Assembly (NCBI RefSeq): GCF_011682145.1 | Contig: NZ_WHJH01000013.1 | Location: 1 to 64,000, forward strand | DNA: 64,000 bases | DNA from: Massilia mucilaginosa | GTDB lineage: Bacteria; Pseudomonadota; Gammaproteobacteria; Burkholderiales; Burkholderiaceae_D | Reading direction: 5' to 3' | Notes under the pieces: generated by a model | Databases searched by the model: none | Seen by the model: the letters and a program-made list of their open reading frames with translations, nothing else | What the model was told of the DNA's origin: nothing | Shown here: positions 8,335 through 55,303 of the stretch, piece by piece | Layout of the letters: each line of letters starts with the position of its first letter | Position numbering within the stretch: the stretch's first letter is position 1 | Made by a program: the position numbers and the translations under genes

Positions 8335-9367
8335 GATGGTTTCCTGTGGGGGTGATCGGGGCTGCGCTGTCGTGCGCGGCCGCTTCGTCTGTGTCCAAAG
8401 CTTGTGCAAAATCCGGGCGTGCGCCGGCCGCCAGGGCGGCGCCGGCCCGTAATAGCGGCTTGCCGTTGATGGTCGCGCCTTTCAGGCGCAGGCCGGCGCT
8501 TGCCATGTCGCCGGCCAGGCGGTAGAGCAGGCTCATCGACTGAGCCGGATCGAGCTCGCCATCGCGGATCCAGAGATCGACGTCCTTGCCGTTGCCGGTC
8601 AGGTGCATCAGGCGCTTTTCCCAGACCGGCTTGTCGCCCAGTTCGGCGTCGGTGTCGGCTGCCTGGCGCGCGGGCGCCGCTTCGTGGGCGTCGCCGTCTT
8701 CGGTCCTGGCGGCCAGCGCGGCGCTCAGGCGCACCGGCTCGCGCACGGCCACCGGCGGCAAGGCCGGTGCGGTGTTCTCGCGCGCCAGCTGGAGCGCGCC
8801 AGCGCGCCCGCCTGCCGCTGCTGCTGCCGCCAGCGCCATGCCAGTACCGGGCGCGCCGGGCGCCGGCGCGTTCGCGGTGGCGGGGGCGGACAGGATGGCG
8901 GCGGCCTGCAGCGTGCGTGCCGCCGGCCCGGGCGTTATCACGCTGGCCGCCTGCGCCACACAGGCTTGCGCGTCCTGTTGCGTTGCGGGCGGAGCGTGCG
9001 CTGCGGCCGTGGCGTGTGCTGGGGCCTGGGGGGCGGCATCGGGCGCGCGGTCGGCCGCCGCGCGAACGCTGTCGCCGCCTTGCTGGCCGGCGTCGTTCGT
9101 GCGCTCATCGGGTGCGGCGTCACGCGCGCGCTCTTCTGCGCGCTGGACGGCGCGTTCGGCTTGCGGCATCGGGCGCAGGGCGGCTGGCGCCGCCGCCGCC
9201 AGCTTGGCGTCGGAGCGGTCGCGGGCGGCGCCGGCTTTGCCCATGCCGGCCAATTGGGCCAGCTCCATCTGGCGCAACCAGCTCTCGCGTTGATTGGCGG
9301 CGTCGGCCTGGCGCGTCGCTGCGGACTTGTCGTCCGCGACGGCGATAAAGGCGCTGATTTTTGTCAC
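8321..9367 (-). CDS. fliK: Putative hook-length control protein FliK, divergent
   Basis: 348 residues, mostly a long Ala/Pro-rich low-complexity stretch (about 40-230), as in FliK rulers. The C-terminal 110 residues (VWEKRLMHLTGNGKDVDLWIRDGELD) are folded-looking, but the usual FliK 'LDPxxLGxVxV' motif is not clear. The assignment rests on position between fliJ and flgD, composition and length. I chose GTG at 9367: GGAGG stands 9 bases upstream and the codon overlaps the fliJ stop as GTGA. An ATG at 9382 coincides with that ribosome binding site and is unlikely. FliK would set hook length and trigger the FlhB switch. Confidence 0.65.
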   Translation of the reverse strand: MTKISAFIAVADDKSAATRQADAANQRESWLRQMELAQLAGMGKAGAARDRSDAKLAAAAPAALRPMPQAERAVQRAEERARDAAPDERTNDAGQQGGDSVRAAADRAPDAAPQAPAHATAAAHAPPATQQDAQACVAQAASVITPGPAARTLQAAAILSAPATANAPAPGAPGTGMALAAAAAAGGRAGALQLARENTAPALPPVAVREPVRLSAALAARTEDGDAHEAAPARQAADTDAELGDKPVWEKRLMHLTGNGKDVDLWIRDGELDPAQSMSLLYRLAGDMASAGLRLKGATINGKPLLRAGAALAAGARPDFAQALDTDEAAAHDSAAPITPTGNHHGNR

Positions 9368-9831
9368 GTGGTTTTCCTCCAATGAATTCGTTGCAGCCAG
9401 TTGTCGTCGGACAGCTGGTAGCCTTGCTTGGCGATTTTCTGGTCATGCTCGCCGGCCTGCGCTTCCTTGTCGCGGTCCAGGCTTTCGGCGAATTTGCGTG
9501 CGTCGATCAGGCGCAGGTACATGGCATCGCGCTCCTCCTCGGCGGCGCGCAGCTTGACCAGTGTGGCCTGGAGCTGCACCTGCACTTGCAACATATAGTC
9601 GTGGGCGCGACGCTGGCCGGCGATGTCGAGCGCGGTCTGGGTCTGGCGCTGGGCGATGATGTCGGTGCGCGCCGCCGCGAACTGCCCGGCCAGCGCGTCG
9701 CAGTCTTGCTGCAGCGCGCGTGCGGCCTGGTTCAGCACGGCGAGCTCGCTGGCGATCTCGTCGATCTCCCAGGCCGTCATGCTGCGCACCGGTTCGAGCG
9801 CGTAAGCGAAGCCGCGGCGGTCGCCGCTCAT
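9364..9831 (-). CDS. fliJ: Flagellar export chaperone FliJ
   Basis: 155 residues, nearly all coiled-coil (residues about 25-130, with AVLNQAARALQQDCDALAGQFAAAR and VQLQATLVKLRAAEEERDAMYLRLIDARKF), the form of FliJ, which sits in the central pore of the FliI hexamer. Its start overlaps the fliI stop (ATGA) and its stop overlaps the fliK start (GTGA). A much longer reading in this frame across fliI is spurious. Position and structure together make the call good although sequence identity in FliJ is always low. Confidence 0.82.
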   Translation of the reverse strand: MSGDRRGFAYALEPVRSMTAWEIDEIASELAVLNQAARALQQDCDALAGQFAAARTDIIAQRQTQTALDIAGQRRAHDYMLQVQVQLQATLVKLRAAEEERDAMYLRLIDARKFAESLDRDKEAQAGEHDQKIAKQGYQLSDDNWLQRIHWRKTT

Positions 9832-11159
9832 GGCACCGGCTCCGCGTCGACTGCACGCTGCGCCATCACCTCGCGCAGGGCCGCCATGGTGTCGGTGCGC
9901 GCGATGCCGCCCGCTTCGCGCTGGCGCAGGAAGCGGGTCAGGGCCGGCCACATCGCGATGGCGTTGTCGATCTCGGCGCTGCTGCCGGCGCGGTAGGCGC
10001 CCATGTCGATCAACTGGCGGTTGCGGTCGTACACGGCCAGGGATTCGAGCGTGTCGTGCACCAGGGCCTGGTCGTCCTCGGTGGTCAGGTCGCCGAACAG
10101 GCGGCTGACGCTGTGCAGTACGTCGATGGCCGGGTAGTGCCCCTGCTGCGCCAGGCGCCGCGCCAGCACGATGTGCCCGTCGAGGGTAGCGCGCAGCATG
10201 TCCGAGATCGGCTCGTTGAAGTCGTCGCCCTCGACCAGCACTGTGTACAAGGCGGTGATGGCGCCGCCCGAGTCGGCCGTGCCGCAGCGCTCGCACAGCT
10301 CCGGCAGTTCGGCGAACACCGACGGGGTGTAGCCGCGCGCGGTGGGCGGCTCGCCGATCGACAGGCCGATTTCGCGGCGCGCCATGGCGAAGCGGGTCAC
10401 CGAATCCATGGTCAGCATGACTTGCTTGCCGGCGTCGCGAAAGTATTCGGCAATCGCCGTGGCGGCGTAGGCCGCGCGCGCGCGTGCCAGCGCCGGCTGG
10501 TCCGATGTGGCGACCACCACCACCGAGCGCGCCAGCCCTTCCGGGCCGAGGTGCTTGTCGATGAATTCGCGCACTTCGCGCCCGCGCTCGCCGATCAGGG
10601 CGATCACATTGACCTCGGCCAGGGTATTGCGGGCGATCATGCCGAGCAAGGTGCTCTTGCCGACGCCGCTGCCGGCAAAAATGCCGACGCGCTGGCCATG
10701 GCCCATGGTCAGCATGCTGTCGATCACGCGCACGCCGGTTTCCATCACGGTCGTCACGCGCGGGCGCGAGAGCGGGTTGAGGGGCGTGGCCTTGAGCGGA
10801 CGGAATTCGGCGGCGTGGATCGGCGCGCCGCCATCGAGCGGGTCGCCAAAGGCATCGATCACGCGGCCCAGCAAGCCCTGGCCAACCGCGATGCGCGGCA
10901 TGCGCCCGGTGGCGACGACTTCGCTGCCGACGCCGATGCCCTGGATTTCGCCGTAGGGCATGAGCATGACGCGGCCGTCGCGCAGGCCGACCACTTCGGC
11001 GCGCACGCTGGCGCCGCCGCGGCGTGGGCGGATCTCGCAGATCTCGCCGACCAGTGCGTCCGGCCCGGACGACTCGATGCTCAGGCCCGCCAGTTGGCGT
11101 ACGTGGCCGACCTTGCGCACCAGGTCGGCCGAGCGGATGGCGTCGACGTAGCGCTGCAT
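9828..11159 (-). CDS. fliI: Flagellar export ATPase FliI
   Basis: 443 residues. Walker A GSGVGKST is at residues 163-170, followed by NVIALIGERGREVREFI and the VMLTMDSVTRFAMARREIGLSIGEPP block; the C-terminus carries the RLFGDLTTEDDQ region. These identify a FliI/SctN rotary ATPase that energises export at the gate. The start MQRYVDAIRS at 11159 overlaps the preceding stop as ATGA; 70 upstream in-frame residues are low-complexity shadow. Length matches FliI. Confidence 0.96.
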   Translation of the reverse strand: MQRYVDAIRSADLVRKVGHVRQLAGLSIESSGPDALVGEICEIRPRRGGASVRAEVVGLRDGRVMLMPYGEIQGIGVGSEVVATGRMPRIAVGQGLLGRVIDAFGDPLDGGAPIHAAEFRPLKATPLNPLSRPRVTTVMETGVRVIDSMLTMGHGQRVGIFAGSGVGKSTLLGMIARNTLAEVNVIALIGERGREVREFIDKHLGPEGLARSVVVVATSDQPALARARAAYAATAIAEYFRDAGKQVMLTMDSVTRFAMARREIGLSIGEPPTARGYTPSVFAELPELCERCGTADSGGAITALYTVLVEGDDFNEPISDMLRATLDGHIVLARRLAQQGHYPAIDVLHSVSRLFGDLTTEDDQALVHDTLESLAVYDRNRQLIDMGAYRAGSSAEIDNAIAMWPALTRFLRQREAGGIARTDTMAALREVMAQRAVDAEPVP

Positions 11160-48149: not shown

Positions 48150-50744
48150 TTATTCGAGCGGGACGGTCGCCTGATGTAACGAGGCTGTCGCCGCCGCGGC
48201 GGGCGCCGGGTCGACATAGCGCGCCGTTTCGCGCAGGGCGGTGGCGCTCGACCCGCAGGCGAACAGCAGCACGTCGCCCGGCCGGCAGCAGGCCATCGCC
48301 GCCGCAAAGGCATCGCTGACCGGCACGATGGCGTGCAGCAGGTGTTCATCCTTGCCGGCGCGGCGCGCGCCGTCGAGGATTTTTTGCGCCGTCTCGCCGC
48401 TGGCGCGTCCGCGCGGATCGGCTTCGTACACGAACAGTTCGTCGAAACCGTCGGCGCAGGTGTGGCCGATGTCGAGCAGGTCGGCTTCGCGCCGGTCGCC
48501 GGGGCAGGTGAGCACCGCGATGCGCCGTCCGCCCGAGAGCGATTGCGCCATCGACGCCATGGCCGCGTAGGCGGCCGGGTTGTGGGCGTAGTCGACCACG
48601 ATCGTCACGCCGTGCGCGCTGTAGATGTTCGAGCGCAGCGGGTTGTTGGCGCGGTCCGACACAAACGTGGACAGCGCCAGCGCGATCTGCGCATGGGTAA
48701 AGTCGGCCCCCATCAGCGCGGCCGACGCGGCGAGCGCGTTGGCGATGTTGTAGCGCGCATGGCCCTGCATGCTCGACGGCATGCGCTCGGCGCGCAGCAG
48801 TTCGGCCCTGCGCGAACCATCGGCCAGGATCAGCGCATTGTCCTGGTAGTAGGCGGCGCGCCCGCCGTTATCGAGATGGCGCAGCAGGACCGGGTTCTCC
48901 GGCTCCATCGAAAAGAAGATGCGTTCCACATCGGCCGGCACCTGCGCGCTCATCGCCACGCACAGGCGGTCGTCGGCGTTCAGGACCACCGCGCGCGAGG
49001 CGGCGTTGGCTACCACGGCCTTCACGCCCGCCAGTTCTTCCACGCTCTCCACGCCGTCGAGTCCCAGGTGGTCGGCCGACACGTTCAGCACCACCGCCAC
49101 CGCGCAGCGGTCGAACGCCAGCCCGCGCTTGAGGATGCCGCCGCGCGCCGTTTCCAGCACCGCGATATCGACCGTCGGGGTGGTCAAGAGGGTGCGCGCC
49201 GAATGGTAGCCGGCGCAGTCGCCGTCGATGATCCGGTGGCCGTCGATGAAGACGCCCTCGGTGGTGGTCACGCCCGTGCACAGGCCGGCCAGGCGGGCGG
49301 CGTGCGCGATCATCAGGGAGGTGGTGGTCTTGCCGTTGGTGCCGGTGACCGCAATGACGGGAATGCGGCCGTCGCCCTCGCCGAACATGGCGTCGACGAT
49401 GGCGGCGCCGGCGTTGCGGGCCTGGCCCTGGCTCGGGTATTCGTGCATGCGGATGCCGGGTGCGGCATTGACTTCGATCAGGGCGCCGCGCTGTTCGCGC
49501 AGGCACAGCGCAATGTCGCTGCAAATGACGTCGATGCCGGCCACGTCCAGGCCGATGATCTGCGCCGCGCGGATGCACATTTCGCGCGTGGACGGGTGTA
49601 CCAGGCCGGTCACGTCTTCGGCGGTGCCGCCGGTGGACAGGTTGGCGTTGCCGCGCAGCTGTACCTCGACGCCGCCCGGAACCACGGAATCGAGCGCGAA
49701 CCCCTGTTCGGCCAGCAGCGCCAGCGCCAGTTCGTCGAGGCGCAGGTGCGTGAGGATGTTGGCGTGGCCTTCGCCACGCGCCGGATCGCGGTTTTCACGG
49801 TCGACCAGCTCCTGTACGGTGGCCGCGCCATCGCCGGTGATGGACGGCGGGCGGCGCAGCGAGGCGGCGGCGAGCTTGCCGCCGGTGACCAGCAGGCGGT
49901 AGTCGCGCCCCGCGATGAAGCGCTCGACGATGACGCGGCGCCCGTACTGGCGCGCGAAATCGAAGGCGGTGCGCACGCTGTCGGCATCGCCGCATTCGGT
50001 GGTGACGCCCTTGCCCTGGTTGCCGTCGAGCGGCTTGACGGTGACCGGGAAGCGCAGGCGCGCGGCCAGCGCCACCGCTTCATCGGCGGTGGCGGCCACG
50101 CCGCCCTTGGGCACCGGAATGCCGCCCTGGTCGAGCAGGGTCTTGGTCAACTGCTTGTTGCTGGCGATGCCGACCGCGATGGTGGACGTGGCGCCGGTCA
50201 CGGTCGCCTGCAGGCGCTTCTGGCGGCTGCCCCAGCCCAGCTGGAACAGATTGGCTTCGTCGGTCAGGCGCACCGTGGGAATGCCGCGCGCCTGCGCCGC
50301 GTTCACCACCGCCGCCGTGCTGGTGCCCATGGCGCCGCGTTGCGCAACGTCGCGCAGCGCGTCGAGACGGTCGGTCCAGTCGGGCGCCTCGCCGCGCGCG
50401 GCCGCCCGCACCATCTCGAGCGCCAGCGCCATGGCGTCGACGGCGACCTGCTCGCGCTGGTAGGCGACCACGATGCGCCAGCGCCTTGCATCGACCTTGC
50501 TGGTCAGGGCGAAGCTGACCGGCGTGCCGGCCATGCCTTGCAGTTCCAATGCCGCCTGTTCGGCCGCCTGCGCGAGCGTGGCGCAACTGCGCCGGCTGGC
50601 CATGCCGGGCAGCTGCGCCAGCAAGGCGTCGGCGAAGCCGGGATGCATGCCGGGCGTCTCGCCGCTGTCGATCATGGTTTGCAGGCAGGTCAGCCGGGAC
50701 CAGCGATTGGGGCCGCGCAGCACGCGCTGTTCGATGATGTTCAT
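48150..50744 (-). CDS. cphA: Cyanophycin synthetase CphA
   Basis: 864 residues with the three-part CphA layout: N-terminal domain (1-160), ATP-grasp domain (about 165-465: ATSTIAVGIASNKQLTKTLLDQGGIPVPKGG, PVTVKPLDGNQGKGV, IEVNAAPGIRMHEYPS), and a Mur-ligase-like domain from about 470 with VTGTNGKTTTSLMIAHAARLAG. It builds multi-L-arginyl-poly-L-aspartate from Asp and Arg with two ATP per residue pair. Length matches CphA1. Unlike many betaproteobacteria there is only one cphA here. It is the last gene of the minus-strand cluster, 5 bases after cphB. Confidence 0.95.
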   Translation of the reverse strand: MNIIEQRVLRGPNRWSRLTCLQTMIDSGETPGMHPGFADALLAQLPGMASRRSCATLAQAAEQAALELQGMAGTPVSFALTSKVDARRWRIVVAYQREQVAVDAMALALEMVRAAARGEAPDWTDRLDALRDVAQRGAMGTSTAAVVNAAQARGIPTVRLTDEANLFQLGWGSRQKRLQATVTGATSTIAVGIASNKQLTKTLLDQGGIPVPKGGVAATADEAVALAARLRFPVTVKPLDGNQGKGVTTECGDADSVRTAFDFARQYGRRVIVERFIAGRDYRLLVTGGKLAAASLRRPPSITGDGAATVQELVDRENRDPARGEGHANILTHLRLDELALALLAEQGFALDSVVPGGVEVQLRGNANLSTGGTAEDVTGLVHPSTREMCIRAAQIIGLDVAGIDVICSDIALCLREQRGALIEVNAAPGIRMHEYPSQGQARNAGAAIVDAMFGEGDGRIPVIAVTGTNGKTTTSLMIAHAARLAGLCTGVTTTEGVFIDGHRIIDGDCAGYHSARTLLTTPTVDIAVLETARGGILKRGLAFDRCAVAVVLNVSADHLGLDGVESVEELAGVKAVVANAASRAVVLNADDRLCVAMSAQVPADVERIFFSMEPENPVLLRHLDNGGRAAYYQDNALILADGSRRAELLRAERMPSSMQGHARYNIANALAASAALMGADFTHAQIALALSTFVSDRANNPLRSNIYSAHGVTIVVDYAHNPAAYAAMASMAQSLSGGRRIAVLTCPGDRREADLLDIGHTCADGFDELFVYEADPRGRASGETAQKILDGARRAGKDEHLLHAIVPVSDAFAAAMACCRPGDVLLFACGSSATALRETARYVDPAPAAAATASLHQATVPLE

Positions 50745-50749
50745 ATGCT

Positions 50750-51592
50750 CTAGGCGATGTTGGTAACAATATGTAGAAAGTCGGCCAGCGCGGCCGGCGT
50801 GGCGCTGTCGCCGCGCGCGCCGTAGCGCGAACCGGACGGCAGCAGGTGCAGGCGCACGTCCACCATTTGGGGCACGCTGCGGTTGCGGATGTCGGCCACG
50901 TTCGAGACCATGTGGCGCCCGTCGATCACGGTGACCGCGCCTGCGCCCAGGATCTCGATGCCGCCGCCGGCTTCGATCAGCAGCGCCGTGTCTTCGTCGA
51001 TGCCCACGCCCAGCAGGTAGGGATTCTGCGCCACCACCGTCAGCAGGCGCGCGAGGCGCTGGCGCTGCGAGAAGTGCTGGTCGATCACGACGCGCTGCAC
51101 GAAGCCGATGCCGGCGCCCAGGCTGACCGCGCCTTTTTCGGGATGCAGGTCGGCTTTGCCGTCGGCCAGCATGTGCGCGGACATCGCCGACGCGCCCGCG
51201 CTGGTGCCGGCGATGCTGGCGCCGCGCGCCAGCGCCGCGTGCAGGGCTTTGTCCAATTTAGTTCCGCCGATCAGCGCCAGCAGGCGTTTCTGGTCGCCGC
51301 CGGTGATGAAGATGCCGTCGGCCCGCGCCAGCTCGGCCGCCTTGGCCGCATCGTTGGCATCGAGCCGGCTGCTCACGCGCACTTCGCCGCGGTGCGCCAC
51401 GCCCATGCCGCCGAACGCGGCGTCGTAGATGGCCCACATTTTTTCGGGCACGCGGCTGGCGGCGGTGAGCACCACGATGCGCTTGTCCGGCCCGCCGCAG
51501 AGGGCGACGAAGCGCTCCAGGATTTGCATGTCGTCTTCGCGGTCTTCGCCGCCGCCGATGATCAAGAGACTGCCCCGCGCCGGTTCGTTCAT
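50750..51592 (-). CDS. cphB: Cyanophycinase CphB
   Basis: 280 residues of the peptidase S51 fold. The nucleophile Ser131 is in GTSAGASAMSAHML; FITGGDQKRLL and RVVIDQHFSQRQRLARLL are further family motifs. It is cytoplasmic (no signal), hence acts on stored granules, cleaving cyanophycin into beta-Asp-Arg dipeptides. The start MNEPARGSLL overlaps the methyltransferase stop as ATGA. Having cphB and cphA cotranscribed argues for turnover rather than one-way storage. Confidence 0.93.
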   Translation of the reverse strand: MNEPARGSLLIIGGGEDREDDMQILERFVALCGGPDKRIVVLTAASRVPEKMWAIYDAAFGGMGVAHRGEVRVSSRLDANDAAKAAELARADGIFITGGDQKRLLALIGGTKLDKALHAALARGASIAGTSAGASAMSAHMLADGKADLHPEKGAVSLGAGIGFVQRVVIDQHFSQRQRLARLLTVVAQNPYLLGVGIDEDTALLIEAGGGIEILGAGAVTVIDGRHMVSNVADIRNRSVPQMVDVRLHLLPSGSRYGARGDSATPAALADFLHIVTNIA

Positions 51593-52599
51593 GCGGCACC
51601 AGTCGGGCGCGTGGCGCACAGCCACACCGCCGCGATCCGGTCCGCGTAGGCGTACGGGGCTTCGTCGAGTTCTTCGCCGAAGACGTCGGGGTCGATTTCG
51701 TCGTAGGTCCAGTGGAAACCGGCCGCGCGCAGGCGCGGTTCGACCGCCTGGCGGAACGGGTCGGCGCTGGCGACGATGGCCGCGCCCGTGTACAGCATCA
51801 GCGTGCCGCCCGGCGCGAGGCGCTTGATGGCTTCGTCGACAATCGCCACCGACAGCCCTGCGCCCAGTTCGCCGCCGCCGTGGCGGTAGGCGCGCTGTTC
51901 GCGGTCGATCAGGTAGGGCGGATTGGCGACGATCAGGTCGAACTGGCCGTCCACGCTGGCGAGCAGATTGCTCTCGACCGGGGTCAGGTTGGCCACCCCG
52001 GCGATGCGCGCATTGACGTCGGTGAGCACCAGCGCGGCCGGGTTGATGTCGGCCGCGAACACGCTGGCGCCGGGATGGGCCAGCGCGATCGTGATGGCGC
52101 CGGGACCGGCGCCGCAGCCGATGTCCGCCGCGCGCCGCACCGGCAGGGTGCGCGCCGCCAGCGAGATGCGCAGGGCGCGCACGAAGCGGTAGGTGTCGGG
52201 ACCGAAGAACACGGCGTCGGCCGCGCTGGTGGGGTAGGCCGAGTGCAGGTAAAGTTGACCATCAAGCGTCGAGGCGCGCAGCACGCTGCGCAGCATGCCG
52301 TTGTCGTGGTTGAGCACCTCGGCTTCATGCAGCAGCGCCATCAGGGTGGGGTTGACCACGGCCGGCTTGAAGGCGCGGCTCCAGCCGAAAATGCCGGCCA
52401 GGTCGTGCGCCCAGCCGTTGGCCAGGCGCGCGTTGACGCGGCTGTGGGTGAGCGGGGTGACGGTGGTGAAGACGTAGCCGAGCTGCTTGAGGCCGCAGCC
52501 GAGCGCGTACAGCGCGGCGCGGCGCTCGCCGCCGGCGATGCCGATCGGCGGTGCCTGGTCGAGCCGGTGGCCGTCGATGGAGATAATGGAGGCGCTCAT
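51589..52599 (-). CDS. HemK-like class I methyltransferase in the cyanophycin cluster
   Basis: 336 residues. SAM-binding motif I ADIGCGAGPGAITIALAHPGASVFAADINPAAL is near residues 158-190; ANPPYL (NPPY at 226-229) is the amide-nitrogen methyltransferase motif of HemK/PrmC and N6-adenine enzymes. The N-terminal 130 residues (with GYVFTTVTPLTHSRVNARLANGWAHDLAGIFGW) are not the PrmC tower domain, so a different substrate is likely. It overlaps cphB and lies 22 bases after the diiron gene. A small-molecule, arginine or amide target is possible; none is established. Confidence 0.78.
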   Translation of the reverse strand: MSASIISIDGHRLDQAPPIGIAGGERRAALYALGCGLKQLGYVFTTVTPLTHSRVNARLANGWAHDLAGIFGWSRAFKPAVVNPTLMALLHEAEVLNHDNGMLRSVLRASTLDGQLYLHSAYPTSAADAVFFGPDTYRFVRALRISLAARTLPVRRAADIGCGAGPGAITIALAHPGASVFAADINPAALVLTDVNARIAGVANLTPVESNLLASVDGQFDLIVANPPYLIDREQRAYRHGGGELGAGLSVAIVDEAIKRLAPGGTLMLYTGAAIVASADPFRQAVEPRLRAAGFHWTYDEIDPDVFGEELDEAPYAYADRIAAVWLCATRPTGAA

Positions 52600-52621
52600 G
52601 GGGTCCTGTAGGTAAGGGCGG

Positions 52622-54100
52622 TCAGCCGAGCAGGCGCACGAACATGCGCGTTGCCATCAGGCCGGTGGGGGTGTGGTGGCGCGCCGGCGACATGTGCGCG
52701 ATCAAGAGCTTCATGGCGGCGCCGGTGGACGGCGCCAGCGCCACGGCTTGTTCCAGATTGCGCAACTGGTCGTTTTCGGCTTCGTGTTCGCCGGCCTGGC
52801 CGTCATAGCGGTAGCGGATCAGGGCGCGTGCGCTGTGCTGCTTGGGCGCTGCGTTGCGGGCCGGGGCCAGGGCGCGCTGGCGGGCGCGGAACGAGGCCAC
52901 GCGCGGCGCCGCCGGGGCGGCATCGCCCTCGTGCGCGGGGGAGGCGATCCAGTCGGCCAGCACCTGCTGTTCGTAGCGCGAAAACACGCCGAACATCTCG
53001 GCATGGTCGCCTTGCAGCAGGCCCCAGAAGCGGCTTTCGTGCGGGGCGGCGCCGCGCTTGATCCAGCCGGTGGTCTCAAAAGCGCGCAGCAGGGTCGGGA
53101 TCTGCGCGGGATCGGCCAGCCAGGCGTTGATGGTCTTGCCGGCCACGCGGCAGTAATCGCTGTGCATGTTCTGTCCGACCATGGCCTTGGCCGCGAGAAT
53201 GCGCACCAGTTCTTGTTCGAGGTCGAAGGAGGCGATCACGGACCCGGTGTTCTCGCCCAGTTCATTGAGCTTGTAGCCTTCGCGCACGCGCCGGTAGAAT
53301 TCGGCCGGGTTGGCGGCGCGCGCCATGACGCGGGCAAGCGCCTCGACCGCGTCGCGCGCGTGCCCGGTCGAGCCGTTGTCGACCGTGACGTGCAAGGTGA
53401 AGTAGTACGGGTCGATGCCCAGTTCGTTCAATTCGTAGGCGGTGATGAGCAGGTGCAGCGGCAGCTGTTCGTAGCCGAGGTTATAGCCGATCATTTCGGG
53501 CAGGAAATCGTCGCCCGCGTAAGCCAGCGCCAGTTGCAGCGCGCCCTGGGTGAAGTGGGCGCCGTCCAGGTCGTCCCATTCGGCGCAGCCGTGGTTGTCG
53601 AGCAGGCGCCGGTACAGGGTGACGTGGTTCTTGTCGGGCAGGCCGTCGCCGAGTTCTTCGACATAGGTTTTGACCAGCGGACGCAAGTCGTTCTCCTGCC
53701 AGCGTTGCAGGGTGCTGTACAGCCAGGCGCCGTCCACCAGTTTGGTCGGGGCCACGCAGCGCAGGAAGTACAGCGCGTGCGACTTGCTGGTGAAGTAGCG
53801 GCGCGCGGCGCCGTCGCGGCGGGCGGCCAGGTATTGCTGGTACTCGGCGCCGATGGCGGCCCCGCGCGGCGCGATCCAGCCATCCAGGCCGGCCGGGGTG
53901 TCGGGCAGGTCGCACGGGTGGGAGGCGGCGCGGGCCAGCTGGCCGACCAGGTAGGCCTGGGCATCGGCATCGGCGCCGGGCGGCAGGTCGGCCCGGGAGA
54001 GAGTGTCGTACAGCGCGCGGCAGCTGGTCGTGGCGGGCGCGCTCTGGCGCGGGGCATCGAGGTGCGGCGGGACGAACACGGTGCTGTGCAGGGTGGTCAT
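52622..54100 (-). CDS. Haem-oxygenase-like diiron oxidase (iron-containing redox enzyme family)
   Basis: 492 residues. The central domain (about 100-330) has the HDO pattern: E148/E149 and H159 (YVEELGDGLPDKNH), then NELGIDPYYFTLHVTVDNGSTGHA with E226, H237, D241 and H247. Such proteins bind two irons and oxidise amines, fatty acids or amino acid derivatives. The C-terminal 110 residues (linker, then YDGQAGEHEAENDQLRNLEQAVAL) are of unknown type. It lies 22 bases before the methyltransferase gene on the same strand, in the cyanophycin cluster. It may act on arginine, aspartate or the dipeptide; that is inference. No strong ribosome binding site before the ATG. Confidence 0.72.
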   Translation of the reverse strand: MTTLHSTVFVPPHLDAPRQSAPATTSCRALYDTLSRADLPPGADADAQAYLVGQLARAASHPCDLPDTPAGLDGWIAPRGAAIGAEYQQYLAARRDGAARRYFTSKSHALYFLRCVAPTKLVDGAWLYSTLQRWQENDLRPLVKTYVEELGDGLPDKNHVTLYRRLLDNHGCAEWDDLDGAHFTQGALQLALAYAGDDFLPEMIGYNLGYEQLPLHLLITAYELNELGIDPYYFTLHVTVDNGSTGHARDAVEALARVMARAANPAEFYRRVREGYKLNELGENTGSVIASFDLEQELVRILAAKAMVGQNMHSDYCRVAGKTINAWLADPAQIPTLLRAFETTGWIKRGAAPHESRFWGLLQGDHAEMFGVFSRYEQQVLADWIASPAHEGDAAPAAPRVASFRARQRALAPARNAAPKQHSARALIRYRYDGQAGEHEAENDQLRNLEQAVALAPSTGAAMKLLIAHMSPARHHTPTGLMATRMFVRLLG

Positions 54101-54217
54101 GGGTGCGGGCGGTCAGGTGTCGAGAGAGGGCTCATTATCGCCGTCGCCCGGCGCGCCTCGTATCGGTGACCAAGCTGTGCTTGGGTAGGACAACGATTAC
54201 GCGGCTCGCACCTCGCG

Positions 54218-55087
54218 TCAGCAAATCATGGCGCGCGGCATGGGGCGGTTGCTGGCTGTGGCGTGGCCGGTTTTGCCGACCGCAATCAGCCCGACCGCGA
54301 CTTCCGGCGCGAACAGCTCGATGCCGCGCGGCAGAGCCTGCTCGATGGGCGTGCCGGCGGCGATCCACTGGTACACGGTGTACGCCAGCAGGTGGCGCAC
54401 GATGTGTTCGCCGATACCGGTGGCGGCCACCGCACCGTCGCTGCCGGCGTAAAAGCCGCTGCCGATGATCGGCGTGTCACCCACCCGCCCCAGCAGCGAC
54501 GGGGCCGAGCCACCGGTCGAGCTTGCCACGGCGAAGTGGCCGTCGGCGCCGCGCACCACCGCGCCGACCGTGTCGCAGGCGCGCTCGCCGCTTTCTTCCA
54601 GCGCGCGTTCATAGTTCCACAGGCGCGCGAACTGGGGCCGGTCGCCCAGCTGCGCGATCAGGCGCGCATGGGCGGCGCGCGCCTTGTCGGTGGGCTGGCA
54701 GAAGGGCGGGTGGCCGCCATTGCGGGCGAAGCGGGTCGCGCCTTCGCCGGCCAGCAGCCAGTGCGGGCTGTCGGCCACCGCGCGCGCGACCAGCACCGGA
54801 TTTTTCACCTGCGTGACGCAAGCCACGCAGCCCAGGCGGCCGTGGGTATCCATGACGGAAGCGTCCATTTCGATGGTCTGGCCGTCCAGGCACAGCACCG
54901 AACCGGTGCCGGCGTTGAAGCGGCCGTCGTCTTCCATCGAGGCCACCGCCGCCACGGCGGCGTCGAGGGCGTCGCCGCCGCGCCGCAGGGTGGCCAGGGC
55001 CAGGCCGGCGGCGCGCGTGCAGCCATCTTCATGGTCGCGCGAGGTACCGGCGCCGCCGTGGACGACGATGGCAGTTGGAGCAGGCAT
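54218..55087 (-). CDS. iaaA: Isoaspartyl peptidase / plant-type asparaginase (autocleaving)
   Basis: 289 residues of the Ntn-hydrolase asparaginase 2 family. Motifs: IVVHGGAG at the start, GRFNAGTGSVLCLDGQTIEMDASVM, and the autocleavage site before Thr in ACDTVGAVVRGADGHFAVASSTGG (near residue 175). It hydrolyses beta-aspartyl dipeptides; with cyanophycinase it finishes cyanophycin breakdown to Asp and Arg. The start at 55087 is the family-typical one; an in-frame start at 55120 has no ribosome binding site. It stands first in the minus-strand cluster, 117 bases before the diiron gene. Confidence 0.9.
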   Translation of the reverse strand: MPAPTAIVVHGGAGTSRDHEDGCTRAAGLALATLRRGGDALDAAVAAVASMEDDGRFNAGTGSVLCLDGQTIEMDASVMDTHGRLGCVACVTQVKNPVLVARAVADSPHWLLAGEGATRFARNGGHPPFCQPTDKARAAHARLIAQLGDRPQFARLWNYERALEESGERACDTVGAVVRGADGHFAVASSTGGSAPSLLGRVGDTPIIGSGFYAGSDGAVAATGIGEHIVRHLLAYTVYQWIAAGTPIEQALPRGIELFAPEVAVGLIAVGKTGHATASNRPMPRAMIC

Positions 55088-55303
55088 GGCGTCTTTCGCA
55101 AAGGCGATGTGGGCTGACATTATCGGCCGCGCCGCGCGCCAGCAGTGTGCGCTGCCTAACCCTGCGCAGTGTTGCACGCTGCTCTAAACTGTTGGTTTTC
55201 AAAAAATGCGACTCTCAGTGATTGTTTGCGAACTGACAACGTGCCCGACTCGGCGTAGACTCTGTACACAGGGCTGCTTTGCAGCCTTTTACCGGAGCGC
55301 TCA

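Follow-up and report, generated by a model that had tools for sequence, protein, structure and literature searches.

A cyanophycin gene cluster of Massilia mucilaginosa joined to a DtpC-like diiron enzyme and a methyltransferase

The gene cluster

The soil bacterium Massilia mucilaginosa carries, in a 64,000-nucleotide stretch of its 7.7 Mb genome (contig NZ_WHJH01000013.1, positions 1 to 64,000; hereafter the window), a run of five minus-strand genes in which the cyanophycin synthetase CphA, the cyanophycinase CphB and an isoaspartyl peptidase share their surroundings with a haem-oxygenase-like diiron enzyme (HDO) and an S-adenosylmethionine-dependent methyltransferase. We find that this CphA belongs, by sequence, to a special type that the HDO accompanies throughout the listed genomes of the family, and that the HDO is related to DtpC, a desiccation tolerance protein of Acinetobacter baumannii. 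Papers are cited by PMC number. The cluster is composed of the following features.

54218..55087, minus strand: isoaspartyl peptidase of the IaaA type (289 residues; N-terminal nucleophile hydrolase with a DTVGA motif at residue 172; PF01112, 5.9e-67)
52622..54100, minus strand: HDO (492 residues; PF14518, 1.3e-28)
53360..53734, minus strand: stretch of the HDO with the putative metal ligands D123, E149, H159, E211, H237, D241 and H247
51589..52599, minus strand: S-adenosylmethionine-dependent methyltransferase (336 residues; PF05175, 2.1e-14)
51913..51924, minus strand: NPPY motif of the methyltransferase
50750..51592, minus strand: cyanophycinase CphB (280 residues; GTSAGA at residue 129, DQHFS at residue 171)
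48150..50744, minus strand: cyanophycin synthetase CphA of the HDO-linked (NPLR) type (864 residues; N, ATP-grasp and Mur-ligase domains)
48633..48644, minus strand: NPLR motif, by which the HDO-linked type of CphA is recognized (the eight general CphAs used for comparison have PGR)

All five genes are intact at these coordinates by Pfam and NCBIfam models and stand in the order given by a preliminary description of the stretch, the peptidase having been scanned with PF01112 from an alternative start at 55177. CphA scores 924.8 bits against TIGR02068 (cut-off 850), with N, ATP-grasp and Mur-ligase domains assigned by Pfam and motifs such as GTNGKTTT present; the cyanophycinase scores 258.3 bits against TIGR02069 (cut-off 126.6) and carries the S51 serine motif; and the HDO falls within the PF14518 superfamily by both family model and fold. 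From the peptidase to CphA, the intergenic gaps measure 117, 22, −4 and 5 bases, the negative value being an ATGA overlap of the methyltransferase and cyanophycinase genes. The last four genes are thus at most 22 bases apart, as first described, and the NPPY motif and the HDO residues E148/E149, H159, E226, H237, D241 and H247 pointed out in that description are all located. A promoter and terminator scan returned matches at chance level, and the 117 bases that separate the peptidase gene from the HDO gene contained no site.

Clustering of the cph genes by themselves is ordinary: of 658 genomes, 81% have cphA1 and cyanophycinase clustered (PMC10206079), and the known cphA1–cyanophycinase–isoaspartyl peptidase clusters have the same three genes and the same clustering (PMC10206079). 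In the main text of that paper, the words "oxygenase" and "iron" are absent and "methyltransferase" appears only for isoaspartyl repair. The arrangement in the window is beyond chance, because the gene order recurs in relatives and the co-occurrence of its members is strong. Among the best 80 of at least 568 HDO relatives found in a collection of 84,980 species, the cluster has its nearest named relatives in Massilia aquatica, M. rubra, M. atriviolacea and M. frigida, where HDO identity is 85–94%. The host genome itself encodes a single PF14518 protein, the HDO of the window.

Co-occurrence of the HDO with its partners

Within the genus sample, 11 of 17 genomes, that of the window included, have the HDO. 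Ten wide loci around its orthologues (L025–L034) were compared: five hold all five genes in order, including one (L031) whose CphA lacks the ATP-grasp domain; two lack the peptidase, two consist of HDO, CphA and CphB, and one has a split HDO only. At L034 (genome G015, 8765–10277), the HDO homologue is broken into two reading frames; either the gene has decayed or the sequence contains an error.

Across 392 genomes of the family, 126 have the HDO and 106 the methyltransferase, with 104 having the two together, which places the methyltransferase in 104 of the 126 HDO genomes versus 2 of the 266 that are HDO-less. This co-occurrence is mostly not mere linkage, because the pair lies within 20 kb in only 37 genomes. 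Some CphA match at E ≤ 1e-60 exists in 344 of the 392 genomes, ordinary CphA being far commoner than the special type. The latter, defined as at least 54% identical to the CphA of the window, occurs in at least 90 family genomes, a lower bound given that two candidates per genome were scored among the matches listed. All 90 carry the HDO, 85 have the two genes within 6 kb, and 84 have both HDO and methyltransferase; the next CphA rows below this group drop to 45% identity. Left outside the 90 are the divergent linked CphAs of two genomes (G001 and G010) and a shortened linked copy in a third (G012). Before counting, we removed eight weak HDO rows (36–43%), which puts seven genomes with no other HDO in the HDO-less set; three HDO-like rows whose frames measure about 1,250 residues; CphA rows at 45% or less; and a single part of one split HDO and of one split methyltransferase.

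The sample of the order (330 genomes) contains the HDO in 12 (E ≤ 1e-40) and, in 4, a CphA that counts as special by its identity of 59% or more; the HDO is present in each of these 4, and each belongs to the window's own family. A fifth CphA match in the order, at 45% (G488), was classed as ordinary by identity and not by motif. The pairing of HDO and special CphA is thus widespread and dedicated. The neighbourhood recurs across family genomes, and is therefore not the property of a single strain that the preliminary description had named as the outcome that would speak against it; its contention that the two extra genes belong with the cyanophycin system gains from the same counts.

A special type of CphA

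The CphAs linked to the HDO bear a signature in the Mur-ligase domain. In 125 of 126 linked rows, some of which represent one genome under two names, a characteristic site reads NPLR (109), NPMR (13), NPIR (2) or NPVR (1); one row (L148:12894), with a garbled C-terminal end, was set aside. The same site reads PGR in the eight general CphAs compared and in five solved CphA sequences, a small set in which seven of the eight rows come from related bacteria and the solved sequences were used as alignments only. Furthermore, 110 of the 125 linked CphAs are one residue shorter in the stretch before RGR, and 16 additional Mur-ligase positions, two of them gaps, are specific to the type. Seven tracked Mur-ligase residues (K499, D585, H586, H748, N749, R777 and R778; Te numbering) are intact in the 125 linked rows and in the CphA of the window. 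Pollutimonas CphAs carry the motif at 48–49% identity, and in a tree of the Mur-ligase domain the linked CphAs form one group (support by the Shimodaira–Hasegawa-like approximate likelihood ratio test, SH-aLRT, 98; a quick tree with a long-branch warning). By these sequence features, the NP[LMIV]R-type CphA is a type separate from the ordinary CphA of cphA1 clusters.

In the ATP-grasp domain, the tracked residues R309, N394, S396, E450 and R458 (Te numbering) are present in the CphA of the window, while E215 and H267 are replaced by G and Q; several of the tracked CphA residues were chosen for conservation, and not all are proven catalytic. This deviation does not exclude activity, because S and Q occupy the two positions in the ordinary CphA that the genome also encodes. 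The pair of substitutions was also considered as a special sign of the window's CphA and was discarded in view of that ordinary copy. An HxxEH primer-making site is found in the N domain of about 80% of CphA1 (PMC9262961); the CphA of the window reads Q E Q instead, which predicts that it is primer-dependent.

The ordinary CphA pair of the host genome lies on another contig (L038, G000:C361:71000-90000) and consists of a full CphA of 856 residues and a CphA′ of 731 residues. The latter is without the Mur-ligase residues, the reverse of the situation in the HDO-linked paralogues from which ATP-grasp has gone.

Such losses are recurrent. Of the 111 linked rows in the tree, 19 (one of them a contig-end fragment) keep the Mur-ligase domain while the ATP-grasp domain is lost or decayed, and at least seven changes on well-supported branches are needed to account for this; the CphA of the window retains the domain. 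As the aspartate backbone is the work of the ATP-grasp domain and the side chain that of the Mur-ligase domain (PMC9427784), a CphA left with only the latter could decorate a polymer and not extend it.

These features bring into view a modified storage polymer, in which the special CphA would load the product of the HDO and methyltransferase as an unusual side chain and the ATP-grasp-less paralogues would decorate the backbone made by a full CphA. The type-specific changes fall within the very domain that loads the amino acid, its seven tracked residues persist, and the backbone-building domain has been repeatedly dispensed with, all of which make this explanation somewhat more attractive. It becomes less so in light of HDO–methyltransferase pairs that occur where CphA is absent (see below). 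The general CphA set against which the changes are measured is small, and we found no description of arginine binding to the Mur-ligase domain in the accessible literature. On balance, we consider this reading to be doubtful.

The HDO and its Acinetobacter homologue

The predicted fold of the HDO is nearest to RohS, HrmI and SznF, and points to N-oxygenases of amino acids. HrmI is the N-oxygenase of hormaomycin. RohS (azomycin) and HrmI share 13–16% identity with the HDO of the window and are shorter proteins; to our knowledge, neither has a linked CphA. SznE belongs to streptozotocin biosynthesis and is a methyltransferase of another type than that of the window. The SznE/SznF system likewise combines a methyltransferase with an HDO N-oxygenase, there acting on arginine (SznF, PMC13108848). 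Although SznF is among the nearest folds, residues 298–492 of the HDO in the window are predicted to be mainly helical, and the C-terminal cupin domain of the SznF type is not seen there. Another parallel is the mangotoxin HDO MboA: HDO genes are co-located with amino-acid ATP-grasp ligases in at least 25 kinds of cluster (PMC13185094), which resemble the window in placing an HDO beside amino-acid ligases. The main text of that paper mentions neither "cyanophycin" nor "CphA", and among the openly available papers listed we found no description of cyanophycin genes joined to an HDO and methyltransferase.

Of the metal ligands first proposed, E226 is a weaker candidate than E211. Three HDO paralogues (L073, L077 and L079), which are probably metal-free relatives, lack E149, E211, H237, D241 and H247 all together and keep E226; because E226 stays invariant where the others are lost, D123, E149, H159, E211, H237, D241 and H247 appear to be the likelier ligand set.

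HDO-like stretches also occur within reading frames of about 1,240–1,260 residues, at L035, L036 and L037 (G006 and G002) and in NZ_CP013105 (H16). The Paraburkholderia caribensis plasmid match among them is annotated as a LodA/GoxA family CTQ-dependent oxidase.

DtpC, an HDO-domain protein, shields dried A. baumannii cells from oxidative damage, keeping peroxide and mutation down; E143, H153 and H232 are each required, and the gene is co-transcribed with the catalase gene katE (PMC13232832). We take the HDO homologue found in one A. baumannii record for DtpC, because the three residues bear these numbers when counted from one of five possible starts and a 714-residue reading frame follows 54 bases downstream, the spacing given for katE (PMC13232832). 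DtpC and the HDO of the window align over nearly their whole length, with 159 of 492 positions identical; E143, H153 and H232 fall on E149, H159 and H237, and all 11 acidic and histidine positions checked are common to both. The HDO of the window is, by this comparison, a homologue of DtpC, besides which we found no functional result for its family in the literature. Their surroundings differ: dtpC sits with katE, whereas the HDO of the window adjoins the methyltransferase and cyanophycin genes. A DtpC-like gene also resides on a mobilizable plasmid of Acinetobacter johnsonii (NZ_CP083948, L187), near genes for a catalase, a DUF2171 protein and trehalose-6-phosphate synthase, in what looks like a stress island.

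This homology invites another explanation, in which the HDO is a stress enzyme fed by stored nitrogen: in dry cells it would remove oxygen or peroxide, or make a protectant from free arginine, and the cph genes would supply that arginine from an ordinary polymer. The action of DtpC in dried cells and its need for the ligand residues (PMC13232832) are in keeping with this, as is the constancy of the HDO, which occurs alone in the A. baumannii record, with the methyltransferase in pseudomonads and with the special CphA in the 90 listed family genomes. Left unexplained are the distinct linked CphA type and the repeated loss of its ATP-grasp domain, and protection is known, as far as we found, from Acinetobacter only. 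We regard this explanation as somewhat unlikely.

The methyltransferase

No specific NCBIfam family fits the methyltransferase. The best is PrmC, at 68.7 bits versus a cut-off of 199.1, so an identity as a PrmC/HemK release-factor methyltransferase was rejected and the initial label "HemK-like" proves too narrow. Its predicted fold is nearest to the N-methyltransferases AerE and GenN, AerE being the closest; the AerE/PoyE-type fold extends over most of its length, at 19–20% identity to AerE, PoyE and GenN.

The targets of AerE and PoyE are asparagine amides within a peptide, which they methylate (PMC11285071). By analogy with AerE, a ribosomal peptide might be the substrate of both the methyltransferase and the HDO, with the cyanophycin genes being incidental. 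Among small open reading frames near the pair at eight loci, none is common to different genera, and all eight cross-locus matches are between the related Pseudomonas loci L165 and L177. With no such frame shared between genera at these eight loci, the idea was set aside as highly improbable.

A methyltransferase of this family also adjoins a short HDO of another subfamily on plasmid pGXY010 of Komagataeibacter medellinensis (L190, 7013–8825), in a stretch with arsenic-resistance and ABC transporter genes.

Wider relatives

Among the best 80 HDO loci, the fetched stretches, some of which stop at a contig end, contain CphA in 60, cyanophycinase in 48, the peptidase in 34 and the methyltransferase in 30; the HDO is accompanied by the methyltransferase only in 14 and stands by itself in 6. 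Many Massilia have an HDO–CphA run facing a second run of CphA–cyanophycinase–peptidase, and at five Duganella loci (L128, L134, L138, L144 and L159) an HDO–cyanophycinase–CphA run faces the methyltransferase and a CphA with lost or decayed ATP-grasp domain. The pair without nearby cph genes occurs in Pseudomonas oryzihabitans, P. luteola, P. duriflava, P. asuensis and Stutzerimonas degradans. When 19 whole genomes behind such loci were searched, a full-length CphA turned up in 6; the other 13, which include all ten pseudomonad genomes, had none. The HDO and methyltransferase thus form a module of their own.

Could this module be an independent one that was inserted beside a cyanophycin cluster and merely travels with it, its neighbours sharing no function? 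The unrelated surroundings of the pair in pseudomonads and others would be expected, and the HDOs of the M. aquatica group, the window's closest relatives, group with that of a Nevskia metagenome-assembled genome (SH-aLRT 100), which suggests transfer; the HDO tree, like that of the Mur-ligase domain, is a quick one with a warning that long branches meet. Mere neighbourhood accords poorly with the co-occurrence in 90 of 90 listed genomes, 85 of them within 6 kb, and with the varied gene orders in which Massilia, Duganella, Pseudoduganella and Pollutimonas hold the same partners. It seems to us improbable.

Interpretation

We tentatively propose, at a probability of roughly 0.4, that the locus is a dedicated cyanophycin branch coupled to a DtpC-type diiron enzyme. 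The HDO would most likely be an N-oxygenase of a basic amino acid, with arginine as the obvious candidate, and the neighbouring methyltransferase would N-methylate the same compound; the special CphA, the cyanophycinase and the peptidase would store and release either that substrate or its modified form. Cells would likely gain protection in drying or oxidative stress, as for the Acinetobacter homologue; in Oxalobacteraceae, where the module would be joined to a dedicated storage branch, such a gain is plausible. The proposal builds on the gene set, its tight co-occurrence, the special CphA with its changed Mur ligase, the repeated loss of ATP-grasp elsewhere and the homology to DtpC, all read from sequence comparison. 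We infer the N-oxygenation and N-methylation from the folds and partners of the two enzymes; arginine as substrate, the order of the steps and a protective role in this organism are advanced in the same conditional sense.

A number of observations weigh against a coupled branch of this kind. A shared fold is no demonstration of function. Six of the 90 listed special-CphA genomes have the HDO without the methyltransferase, and in Sphingobium the methyltransferase is present with no HDO among its annotated neighbours. Judged from the one A. baumannii record, in which no methyltransferase match was found and the CphA search gave only a 27% match in a 500-residue frame, DtpC works without either partner. 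All 10 pseudomonad genomes searched have HDO and methyltransferase and are without CphA, with only a 33–35% match over an ATP-grasp domain; it follows that the pair does not need cyanophycin, to which its link would be a local addition. A catalase, which would be the counterpart of KatE beside DtpC, is not among the nine window proteins scanned by profile. Eight usable stress-gene queries, run by tblastn over 113 loci, yielded six matches, of which two were to the query's own locus, a result that says little about the surroundings of HDO genes.

The preliminary description had the oxidase and methyltransferase modify arginine, aspartate, the dipeptide or the polymer. The tie to the cyanophycin system and the N-oxygenase-like predicted fold of the HDO speak for this, while modification of polymer or dipeptide cannot be what the pair does in general, given the 10 CphA-free pseudomonads and the solitary HDO of the A. 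baumannii record.

A bolder extension of the coupled branch, which we deem unlikely, is a second, chemically different cyanophycin, in which the HDO and methyltransferase would supply an N-oxygenated, N-methylated basic amino acid as the side chain, attached in some organisms by a CphA without the backbone domain, which would serve as a dry-state or oxidative buffer and not as a nitrogen store.

The DtpC-type HDO is now given a strong genomic partner, one that points to amino-acid chemistry. A distinct lineage of cyanophycin enzymes is tied to an oxygen-activating enzyme and has lost one of its two ligase domains repeatedly. As such, this special lineage calls into question the idea of a single, simple storage polymer made by CphA homologues.

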